From positions 1 through 21,196 of IMG/VR virus record IMGVR_UViG_3300021197_000090: a DNA stretch of 21,196 nucleotides; one strand, written 5' to 3'. The position numbers and the translations under genes were made by a program. Numbering within the stretch: the stretch's first letter is position 1; each line of letters opens with the position of its first letter. Below, piece after piece: positions 15,930-18,874 of the stretch. The notes under the pieces were generated by a model that was not told the DNA's origin, ran no database searches, and saw nothing but the letters and a program-made list of their open reading frames with translations. The DNA is from a virus.

Positions 15930-16343
15930 TTAATATTTCTTCACCGCTCGGATGATCACTTGGTATGCATCACCAGCCGCGCCAGCCCCAGTTGTTGTAA
16001 ACTTGATGTCTCCAGTACCGTTTGCACCATATGATGCGGTATTAGGCAAGCCACCAAATCTCTCAAAACTCTGATAACCCTGCTGATCTTCTGCCAGATG
16101 CATAACAATTATGTCAGTATCAGCGTCTGCCAATACTTGAACTGTCATGCCGCTTAGAACCCAGTGACATTCAATTATTTTAAGGCCCGTGCAAGTTGCG
16201 CCATCCGCACTTGCCACCAAGGCAGACACGTCTATTTTTGACACTGCGCTTTCGTTACCACCATCGACATATTGATATTGGAATGCAAGAACGCATTCAT
16301 GTGTGTTGTCGATGATTGTAGTCGATGTTGTAATATCAGCCAT
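15930..16343 (-). CDS. Conserved beta-rich structural protein, 137 aa
   Basis: The protein begins MADITTSTTIIDNTHECVLA and contains FQYQYVDGGNESAVSKIDVS, LKIIECHWVLSGMTVQVLAD, IIVMHLAEDQQGY and GDIKFTTTGAGAAGDAYQVI. It is nearly all beta, without membrane or signal segments. The pattern resembles a small virion protein I have seen in other marine phages near head-tail genes. The ATG has an AGGAG ribosome site at 16350-16354 that lies within competing stems (see the regulatory entry). The gene is followed after 13 bases by the adaptor. A head or neck decoration role is inferred. Confidence 0.78.
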   Translation of the reverse strand: MADITTSTTIIDNTHECVLAFQYQYVDGGNESAVSKIDVSALVASADGATCTGLKIIECHWVLSGMTVQVLADADTDIIVMHLAEDQQGYQSFERFGGLPNTASYGANGTGDIKFTTTGAGAAGDAYQVIIRAVKKY

Positions 16344-16391
16344 ATCAATCTCCTAGATTGTGGAGCGGGGGTTGCCCCCCGCCAGATTGAT
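16341..16391 (-). promoter_or_regulatory. Leader with mutually exclusive stems around the ribosome site of the 137-aa gene
   Basis: In mRNA order: AUCAAUCU (16391-16384), a strong hairpin (16382-16365), CAAUCU (16360-16355), AGG (16354-16352), AGAUUGAU (16351-16344), AUG. AGAUUGAU can pair perfectly either with the distal AUCAAUCU (8 pairs) or, in its first six bases, with the adjacent CAAUCU around a 3-base loop. Both pairings involve the AGGAG ribosome site. The pairings are read directly; a regulatory role is inferred. Confidence 0.45.
16365..16382 (-). other. GC-rich intercistronic hairpin with GCAA tetraloop
   Basis: In the mRNA the sequence is GCGGGGG-GCAA-CCCCCGC, a perfect 7-pair stem closed by a GNRA-type tetraloop. 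It lies between the 198-aa and 137-aa genes. No U-run follows (UCCACAAUC comes next), so it is not a standard terminator. It may protect the upstream mRNA's 3' end or act in the adjacent ribosome-site switch. Confidence 0.75.
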
Positions 16392-16988
16392 TTATTCAAA
16401 CGGTGTCGCAAGTGTCGCGTCACCTAACAGGAATGCCGCGCAATGCCAGCGCGTGGCCGACTGAGCGGTAAGCGTGATCTGGCCTCCAGAAAGCCACCCC
16501 TGCTCTACTGCGCCCAAATCAATCGTGTCATCGTTAGATTGATCTGGAATAAACGTGTTGGTGTCTCCAGCCGTTGCGGGGTCTGATAATATAGCAAACC
16601 CAGAATACAGATCGGCGGTAGCGCCCGTATTAATCTGGCCTGCGCCAGTGAATGTTGTTCCCACTATAAACGTGTATTGCTCACCGCTTGCCGCTGCGGT
16701 TAATTCTGGAAGCGTAACCACAATTCCTGCCGCCCTTGATAAAATAAACGTGGTTCCTGACTGGGCGGCTGTGACGGCGTAGGTTGCATCTGTAATTGTT
16801 ACGACTGACTTAATGCCTGTCGTGGCTCCCGTGACCGCGAGGGTTCCAGCGATGGTAACATTGCCGCCAATTGTGGCGTCATTATTATATGTTGAATTTG
16901 TGGTGTAAGCGCCTGTGGTGGCGTTTTTCGTTACGTCGATAAAGCCGTTTTCAGAACGTACCGCACCTGTAAAAGTAGTTGTACCCAT
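16392..16988 (-). CDS. Beta-rich virion protein, 198 aa
   Basis: I chose the ATG at 16988 (MGTTTFTGAVRSENGFIDVT) because an AGGAG site lies 7 bases upstream (ACAGGAGATCATCATG); a longer frame starting at 17030 adds 14 residues and has no such site. The N-terminal part has NATIGG-type turns (DATIGGNVTIAGTLAVTGAT) as in phage fibre and decoration proteins. The rest alternates strands (VVTITDATYAVTAAQSGTTF, GIVVTLPELTAAASGEQYTF, RWHCAAFLLGD). The C-terminal part recalls a beta domain that ends several marine phage structural proteins. It is the first gene after the second terminator. A virion-surface role is inferred. Confidence 0.78.
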   Translation of the reverse strand: MGTTTFTGAVRSENGFIDVTKNATTGAYTTNSTYNNDATIGGNVTIAGTLAVTGATTGIKSVVTITDATYAVTAAQSGTTFILSRAAGIVVTLPELTAAASGEQYTFIVGTTFTGAGQINTGATADLYSGFAILSDPATAGDTNTFIPDQSNDDTIDLGAVEQGWLSGGQITLTAQSATRWHCAAFLLGDATLATPFE

Positions 16989-17033
16989 GATGATCTCCTG
17001 TCTTGGGTTAAAGTCAGGCACGGGACGCACCTG

Positions 17034-17056
17034 TCAGGGATGTCGGCACAATACAA
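17034..17056 (-). promoter_or_regulatory. Motif shared downstream of both terminators (copy 2)
   Basis: On the minus strand this reads TTGTATT, 8 bases, ATCCCTGA, 20 bases after the second terminator hairpin and upstream of the 198-aa gene. The same arrangement, with 9 bases between, follows the first terminator at 17843-17866. A promoter for the downstream genes is possible, but no good sigma-70 -10 box is present at this copy (ACAGGT lies at 16-base spacing from TTGTAT). Confidence 0.25.
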
Positions 17057-17965: not shown

Positions 17966-18874
17966 TTATGCTGCGCCTTCGGTGCCAAATACGCCGCGCC
18001 AATCGGTGAAGCCAAAGCTATATCTTTCGCGTACCTTGTAACGGACGTTGCCAGTCTCAAAGTCACCTTCCATGCCCTTTTTCATCGCTGAACGGGTGAA
18101 GTGCTTCAGACCATCTGGAACGTCAGTTGTAATGAAGAACGCATCAGGATCGGTCAGACGGCGCATGATGTGATAGCCCTTGGGCAGATAACCACCAGCC
18201 TTAATGGCGTTGATGTCGTTATCGGCTGTACCAACGCGAAGCTGGCTTTCCAACAGGCGCTCTGCGGTAAACTGATAGGCAGTTGGAATAACCAATTGCA
18301 TACCCTGTGCCGCAATACGAAGGCCACGATCATCTTTCATGTCGCTGATGTTAATCAGGATCGACTCAAGAGATGTCTCGGACAGATCAGCCGCCGTGGC
18401 AAGCACGTTAGACTGAACGCCGTTCTGTGTTGGGTGCGATGCACTCAACAAAGTTTGACCGTCACCACCAGTGTATCCAGCAGTCTGAGAGAAGTTTAAG
18501 ACGTTTGCAGCCTTAATCTCTTTGGTCGATGCCATAGACCGTGCCAGCGCCTTTGTGTAACGCGAGGCAAGCGAACCATACTGACCGTCCTCTTCAGCTT
18601 CCTCAGTGATTGAGAACGCCAAGGCGACAGTTTCGTGCTGATAACGCGCAGTCCACTGTTGGCTTGCGCTGTCATAAGAGACCGCTCCACCCTCAGTTTT
18701 TGTTGGCGCTTGGCCGAAACCACTCAAAAGTACGTCTTCTTCGTAAGCCTTTTGAGAGCTATTCGATTCAAAGACGGCCTCGTATTCAGCGGGATAGCTG
18801 TCGTACTCAAGTCCAAAGAGAGTATTCAGACCCGGCTCTAGAGTTTTCGCAAAACTCGCTCTATTCATTGCCAT
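17966..18874 (-). CDS. Major capsid protein (Mu gpT-type, HK97 fold), 302 aa
   Basis: The protein (MAMNRASFAKTLEPGLNTLF, then GLEYDSYPAEYEAVFESNSS) matches the pattern of Mu-like major head subunit gpT proteins, common as capsid proteins in marine phages. Diagnostic stretches include KAYEEDVLLSGFGQAP, TARYQHETVALAFSITEEAE, QTLLSASHPTQNG, MQLVIPTAYQFTAERLLES and the C-terminal RYSFGFTDWRGVFG. The length of about 300 aa is usual for this family. An ideal ribosome site (AAGGAGGG) precedes the ATG and a strong terminator follows, fitting high expression. It follows the scaffold and capsid-associated genes. No maturation protease is visible in the window. Confidence 0.93.
   Translation of the reverse strand: MAMNRASFAKTLEPGLNTLFGLEYDSYPAEYEAVFESNSSQKAYEEDVLLSGFGQAPTKTEGGAVSYDSASQQWTARYQHETVALAFSITEEAEEDGQYGSLASRYTKALARSMASTKEIKAANVLNFSQTAGYTGGDGQTLLSASHPTQNGVQSNVLATAADLSETSLESILINISDMKDDRGLRIAAQGMQLVIPTAYQFTAERLLESQLRVGTADNDINAIKAGGYLPKGYHIMRRLTDPDAFFITTDVPDGLKHFTRSAMKKGMEGDFETGNVRYKVRERYSFGFTDWRGVFGTEGAA

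Follow-up and report, generated by a model that had tools for sequence, protein, structure and literature searches.

Unequal amounts of capsid or decoration proteins and of tail proteins from one operon are usually explained by promoters and terminators. In translational coupling of the MS2 replicase type, a ribosome site is masked by upstream sequence. Control at the level of message stability is described for the Rhodobacter puf operon: according to excerpts of PMC6238624, its segmental mRNA stability results from RNase E sites together with stabilising structures, with RNase E cutting inside the coding sequence of pufQ and of pufL as well as in the gap between pufA and pufL. The analogy to a limit on 3'-to-5' decay, as used below, is also drawn from an excerpt of PMC7509114. 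In bacteriophage T4, a hairpin is present at the intercistronic junction of gene 25 and was found only in close T-even phages (PMC3014915, in part). The question behind the present finding is how a single operon can yield capsid and decoration proteins by the hundreds but only a few tail proteins; phage GP4, with 540 copies each of the capsid and the cement protein, is an example of such stoichiometry (PMC9698820, in part).

Here, we analysed a virus record of 21,196 bases (IMGVR_UViG_3300021197_000090), referred to as the window, whose nearest annotated relatives are the Roseobacter phages CRP-901 and CRP-902. The leader under study separates a 198-aa gene from a 137-aa gene on the minus strand (Table 1). 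The major capsid gene (17966-18874), whose product matches Mu-like gpT, is located upstream of both. By its position the 198-aa gene is likely capsid-associated, and we infer a head-decoration role. High abundance of its product would be expected from this position and from a match in a relative: CRP-901 gp56 has 72% identity to a protein of DSL-LC04 that carries the annotation 'cement protein' and to which the 198-aa protein of the window gave no direct match in the same comparison. Proteins encoded at the place of the 198-aa gene have in common an N-terminal stretch similar to TTFxGxVRSENGF and diverge widely beyond it; since the first residues served to pick these proteins, conservation of the motif within that set is circular. 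Seen together, the window gene and its relatives combine a short common N-terminus with C-terminal parts of many kinds, reminiscent of a capsid anchor bearing exchangeable domains. The structure model of the 198-aa protein (mean pLDDT 59) was set aside. For the 137-aa protein, no sequence match was found in Pfam, PHROG or PDB. Its best model out of five is beta-rich and jelly-roll-like (pLDDT 87.8; the other four 63-74), with cupins, carbohydrate-binding modules and viral jelly rolls as best structural matches, none of them at E <= 0.001. Judged from this model, the 137-aa protein could itself be a cement protein. PDB sequence searches with the upstream, 137-aa and capsid proteins of the window as well as with the cement and capsid proteins of DSL-LC04 returned nothing significant.

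Table 1. Features of the leader between the 198-aa and the 137-aa gene and of the two flanking genes (window positions)
Feature	Position	Strand	Basis
Upstream gene, 198 aa	16392..16988	-	N-terminus common to genes at the same place in relatives; C-terminal part variable
UAA stop codon of upstream gene	16392..16394	-	sequence
Distal arm AUCAAUCU	16384..16391	-	pairs with 16351-16344 in the minimum-energy fold; two covarying pairs in the lineage
GC hairpin GGCGGGGG-GCAA-CCCCCGCU	16364..16383	-	8 bp, GNRA loop, -17.5 kcal/mol
Proximal arm CAAUCU	16355..16360	-	competing stem without covariation support
Shine-Dalgarno AGGAG of 137-aa gene	16350..16354	-	sequence
RBS arm AGAUUGAU, adjoining the start codon	16344..16351	-	sequence, folding
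Downstream gene, 137 aa	15930..16343	-	beta-rich confident model; weak jelly-roll-like matches

From 16394 to 16341, the minus strand reads UAA-AUCAAUCU-GGCGGGGG-GCAA-CCCCCGCU-CC-A-CAAUCU-AGG-AGAUUGAU-AUG. A preliminary description of this leader had pointed out that the arm beside the AUG can pair either with the distal arm, directly after the stop codon, or with CAAUCU. It had further noted that the two pairings are mutually exclusive, that both cover part of AGGAG, and that the GC hairpin has a GNRA cap. All of this holds. The distal arm is perfectly complementary to the RBS arm, which ends at the AUG, and CAAUCU to AGAUUG; AGAUUG is common to both pairings, both occupy the last AG of AGGAG, and the GCAA loop is of the GNRA type. 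The arms had also been said to flank the GC hairpin; the hairpin is present, but the distal helix encloses it, and the proximal helix lies 3' of it. An 85-nt leader folds with -27 kcal/mol (z -2.86), which none of 200 shuffles equalled; the GC hairpin outperforms 100/100 leader shuffles and the distal helix 299/300 flank shuffles. The minimum-energy fold contains both, stacked in a three-way junction, with the distal helix spanning from directly after the UAA to directly before the AUG; the proximal helix is absent from this fold. Over 16341-16394, no Rfam family reached its gathering score, the only hit being a sub-threshold CRISPR-DR10 (20.8 vs 39 bits).

Compared to puf, the locus likewise has a stable hairpin in one operon whose products are needed unequally, together with A/U-rich sequence as at the puf cleavage sites (PMC6238624, in part), and Roseobacter is the host of the named phages closest to the window; unlike puf, it contains a single short hairpin directly past a stop codon. 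With T4 genes 25 and 38 it has in common a phage mRNA structure that shortens a functional distance (PMC3014915, in part). The T4 structure, however, lies between Shine-Dalgarno and AUG, whereas the window hairpin lies upstream of the Shine-Dalgarno. A split ribosome site like that of T4 gene 25 was considered and rejected, as the window hairpin ends 9 nt before AGGAG.

To follow the leader across relatives, we collected loci encoding relatives of the 137-aa protein with four queries, taking the best 80 of 137, 413, 158 and 182 relatives, so that the sample leans towards close relatives of these queries. It comprises 218 sequences including the window and CRP-901/902; L008, whose contig starts 50 nt upstream, and the partial L163 were skipped, resulting in 216 leaders. 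Fourteen of these stayed unclassed (7 without assigned upstream stop, 7 with a negative gap) and 202 were classed. L059 was left unclassed because its contig is cut; the visible leaders of L059 and L008 both bear the hairpin. The stop-to-start gap is bimodal, with long gaps of 42-63 nt (57 distinct leaders, 124 loci) and short gaps of 3-22 nt (15 distinct leaders, 78 loci). A hairpin of -12 kcal/mol or better is present in 57/57 distinct long leaders collected, and a stable hairpin in 0/15 distinct short ones. With 100 shuffles per long leader, 51/57 hairpins beat all shuffles, five were reached by 1/100 and that of L218 by 3/100. CRP-901 has no second hairpin, its stop codon standing directly before GGAGG, and CRP-902 shows the same 12-nt gap; because CRP-901 does without it, the hairpin is dispensable.

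The hairpins are 7-12 bp long, start 2-22 nt (median 8) past the upstream stop and end 13-25 nt (median 20) before the start codon. They are followed by an A/U-rich linker and then by the Shine-Dalgarno, a match to AGGAG, GGAG, AAGGA or AGGA being present in 57/57 long leaders. Between hairpin and GGA, the linker is 81% A+U (410/509 nt), compared to 51% A+T for the window. Loops vary: UUCG occurs in 9 long leaders, GNRA tetraloops (GAAA, GCAA, GAGA, GCGA) in 14 and GUAAAA in 7, besides others. Across 21 representatives with identities below 75%, every cell at the 7 loop-proximal pairs holds a standard pair (100%); 1000 column shuffles of these pairs gave 64.5% on average and 72.8% at most. Compensated changes are also seen between similar leaders, from GC to UA in L080/L067 and from CG to UA in L203/L212. 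By this comparative evidence the GC hairpin is conserved as a predicted structure and not as a sequence: stems and loops differ strongly between leaders, and covariation is extensive. Treated as marginal in the preliminary description, it is the part of the leader that is conserved. Among the hits listed in a literature search, no title or abstract opening described this hairpin.

To see where such hairpins stand in the virion module, all loci were scanned, using greedy ORF calls, for hairpins of -10 kcal/mol or better within 60 nt past a stop. Two junctions stand out. After the major capsid gene, a hairpin is present in 85/87 distinct regions, 39 of them with at least 5 U's among the 8 nt that follow; before the 137-aa gene, it is present in 56/92 distinct regions, 13 of them with as many U's. 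The junction between the 137-aa gene and the adaptor gene bears a hairpin in 1/79 cases, the one after the adaptor in 0/82 and the one before the capsid gene in 0/57; three other junctions with at least one labelled structural gene gave 3/85, 0/61 and 0/58, and junctions between unlabelled genes 15/124. It was also observed that the 5' arm is richer in G than in C in all 156/156 hairpins of the three main junction classes (after capsid, before 137-aa, unlabelled-unlabelled), a count that leaves out the 4 hairpins at two other junctions (1/79, 3/85). Seven named phages with a related capsid gene were additionally scanned at -9 kcal/mol in 70 nt. The pelagiphages HTVC023P and HTVC027P and the seawater phage 023Pt_psg01, with capsid proteins 57-59% identical to that of the window, carry a hairpin past the capsid gene and a UUCG hairpin past a gene that follows it. 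These two sites hold all or nearly all of their hairpins, 023Pt_psg01 having one extra elsewhere. In DSL-LC04, Alcaligenes phage QDWS535 and Caulobacter phage RW, the hairpin past the capsid gene is accompanied by several at other places, and Pag-Yong1 yielded none in the same scan. Thus, the two-hairpin plan is clear in the pelagiphage relatives and unspecific in more distant ones.

The neighbouring genes are exchanged around the hairpin. Between the window and L001, the 137-aa gene has an identity of 1.00 as printed over 408 nt, whereas the 150 nt upstream have 0.59; of the 5 positions at which their leaders differ, 4 make up two compensated pairs, the first lying in the GC stem and the second in the distal helix. 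The 137-aa gene of L005 is 99% identical in DNA to that of L003, but L005 differs in its leader, which has a hairpin of its own, precedes a GTG start and gave no distal helix (tested as row L006, the same leader). Conversely, L012 and L052 have 99% of the upstream 150 nt in common and different hairpins. Leaders can hence travel with either neighbour gene, as these examples in both directions show, and across 99 representatives the rank correlations of the hairpin with its flanking genes are both weak and positive (0.26 upstream, 0.35 downstream). Judged from the leaders compared, the hairpin is retained through exchange on either side and the distal arm is not.

For the distal helix, we determined in each of the 57 long leaders the best helix that the stop-side flank can form with the last 14 nt and evaluated it against 300 flank shuffles. 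It reached p <= 0.05 in 6/57 leaders, with about 3 expected by chance. Five of these are leaders of the window's lineage; the remaining one, L095, has a weak helix of -1.0 kcal/mol. The lineage consists of 6 distinct leaders (WIN, L011, L003, L022, L017, L027) from 19 loci, plus L254; in L027 the distal helix has 7 bp and p 0.077. Within the 6 leaders, 97.9% of the distal-helix cells are paired, and two-sided changes occur at 2/8 pairs. The covariation score was reached by 37/500 shuffles in this small sample of 6 leaders, so that covariation support for the helix within its lineage may be called moderate. A pattern scan for more distal-arm variants covered 45 stretches, 26 of them encoding the 137-aa family, and yielded no new leader type, adding one contig, L254, with the L027 leader; in a genome collection, 2/76 stretches encode a relative, two MAG contigs that both have the short junction. 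Thus, the distal arm (AUCAAUCU/AGAUUGAU) is real but local, and elsewhere weak or no better than chance.

The proximal helix CAAUCU/AGAUUG fares differently: in the 6 lineage leaders, 0/6 pairs show a two-sided change, 3/6 pairs contain unpaired cells, and the outermost pair is unpaired in 3/6 leaders. Alternative-constraint folding, which had been proposed as a check, gave a divided answer. The proximal hairpin does act as a fallback, appearing in the minimum-energy fold of 5/6 lineage leaders once the distal flank is blocked (6 bp in 2, 5 bp in 3; not in L027). Blocking the proximal arm, however, costs the ensemble 0.01-0.05 kcal/mol only, compared to the 2.7-4.9 kcal/mol of ensemble stability that the distal helix adds. 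When the distal flank is masked, the predicted cost of opening the RBS arm falls from 4.1-6.8 to 0.7-3.6 kcal/mol in 6/6 lineage leaders (53-55 nt, each folded alone). Translational coupling is therefore reasonable in this lineage: a lineage-specific helix that closes the ribosome site against the upstream stop codon is plausible, and in 6/6 lineage leaders the ribosome site is predicted to pair with sequence that a terminating ribosome would cover. As in the MS2 replicase type, the post-stop arm of the lineage pairs beside the start codon and with part of the Shine-Dalgarno; unlike there, the coupling is lineage-specific and predicted, and the enclosed GC hairpin is independent of the coupling helix. 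When the folded stretch also takes in coding sequence, 20 nt from upstream and 30 nt from downstream, masking raises the unpaired probability of the Shine-Dalgarno from 0.28 to 0.46 in the window and lowers it from 0.56 to 0.41 in L003; with coding sequence on both sides, Shine-Dalgarno accessibility thus gives no consistent picture.

These data bear on the proposal of a translation-coupled switch. According to this explanation, the distal arm masks the ribosome site until a terminating ribosome covers it, whereupon the proximal hairpin takes over or dissolves, thereby setting 137-aa expression. It agrees with the two covarying pairs and the ensemble gain of the distal helix in 6 distinct leaders, with the lowered opening cost and the predicted fallback hairpin, and with the retention of the distal helix in the window and L001 despite differing 3' ends of the upstream gene. 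The uncompensated proximal arm, the 6/57 long leaders with a significant distal helix, the L005 leader lacking this helix beside a 137-aa gene 99% identical to that of L003, and the opposite accessibility shifts in the window and L003 argue against it. As an account of the element it appears unlikely. Since one of its two stems is not maintained, the competing-stem switch is unsupported as a conserved device; what survives is plausible coupling via the distal helix in the window's lineage. A lack of conservation or compensation of the three arms in related phages had been named beforehand as what would refute the switch; such conservation or compensation was found widely for the GC hairpin, in one lineage for the distal arm, and not for the proximal arm. 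A switch drawn by hand could thus be separated by covariation into widely conserved, lineage-specific and unsupported parts.

We tentatively regard the intercistronic hairpin at the 3' end of the capsid-associated cistron as a puf-like 3' barrier, to which the window's lineage would have added the outer coupling helix; we give this reading a chance somewhat below even. A stable hairpin between cistrons of one operon, as in puf, is found in 57/57 long leaders and, with -17.5 kcal/mol, in the window. By analogy to puf, protection of the upstream message from 3'-to-5' decay seems the likeliest function. Hereby, an endonuclease would cut in the A/U-rich linker, or transcription would partially terminate where lineages hold some U's, and the hairpin would then block 3'-to-5' exonucleases on the upstream cistron, so that the capsid-associated message would outlast the tail-proximal messages. 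As a second effect, the hairpin may compact the gap and bring the stop codon close to the next ribosome site. In the window's lineage, the outer 8-bp stop-to-start helix would close the ribosome site, so that it would probably need to be opened by ribosomes finishing the upstream gene.

If the hairpin were instead a weak intrinsic terminator or an attenuator lowering transcription into the tail genes, a strong GC stem past a stop codon would likewise be expected, and U tracts follow 39/85 hairpins after the capsid gene. Before the 137-aa gene, the 8 nt past the stem contain 5 or 6 U's in 13/57 long leaders, and partial termination is therefore possible in some lineages. In the other 44/57 there are fewer than 5 U's, and in the window the stem is followed by CCACAAUC, a place where the terminator scan is silent, yet it reports 17099-17074 and 17931-17910. 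We consider termination an improbable main function. For the window itself, a Rho-independent terminator was rejected, the tail CCACAAUCUA not forming a U tract.

About equally improbable is a hairpin that mainly serves initiation of the 137-aa gene, be it by compacting the gap, by keeping the ribosome site unstructured, or by joining stop codon and ribosome site for re-initiation. Such a role would fit the hairpin-to-start distance, which in long leaders is less variable (sd 2.5, median 20) than the stop-to-hairpin distance (sd 3.7, median 8), and the division into short leaders without and long leaders with a hairpin. However, the median predicted Shine-Dalgarno accessibility is 0.56 with and 0.56 without the hairpin, and falls to 0.39 if only the 5' arm and loop are removed. 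Such a fall would fit a C-rich 3' arm acting as an anti-Shine-Dalgarno once the 5' arm is gone, a candidate that was dropped as the effect is uneven across lineages. That the hairpin has no role in expression, being a by-product or joint of frequent upstream-cassette exchange, would accord with the variable C-terminal parts upstream and with leaders travelling with either neighbour, but is very improbable given that the hairpin is present whatever the sequence and that compensated pairs in otherwise similar leaders (including window vs L001) suggest selection on pairing.

Returning to the 3' barrier, a wider version of this reading is conceivable, although we hold it to be rather less probable. 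This group of marine phages would then punctuate its head module with hairpins free in sequence but conserved in structure, placed past the capsid gene and ahead of the 137-aa gene, which would help to set the ratio of head to tail messages. The hairpin at the second site would be replaceable together with the swapped cassette, and in at least one lineage a covarying outer helix would tie the 137-aa protein to translation of the exchanged upstream protein. Retained by pairing only at capsid-module junctions, through repeated gene swaps, such a hairpin offers a testable RNA-level contribution in marine phages.

Two further features of the operon were observed upstream of the leader. At 16986-17039 on the minus strand, the Rfam Mu-gpT-DE RNA (RF03012) matches with 56.7 bits (gathering 49). 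This RNA extends over both the start codon and the ribosome site of the 198-aa gene, with the AGG of the Shine-Dalgarno AGGAG engaged in the outer helix CCUG/CAGG, and it reaches the gathering score in 11/15 related loci scanned. Like the GC hairpin, it is a structured RNA of the same operon, located over the ribosome site of the preceding gene; place, sequence and fold are all different from those of the GC hairpin. Moreover, the two terminator-like sites at 17931-17910 and 17099-17074, also on the minus strand, have the identical core GGGCGGUCUUCGGAUCGCCC and enclose about 0.8 kb between the capsid and 198-aa genes, in which small ORFs are found (17808-17443, 17534-17124). At the same place, CRP-901 has a 140-nt gap only, with a similar terminator-like hairpin. 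The stretch of about 0.8 kb between the two sites looks like an insertion with a duplicated terminator.
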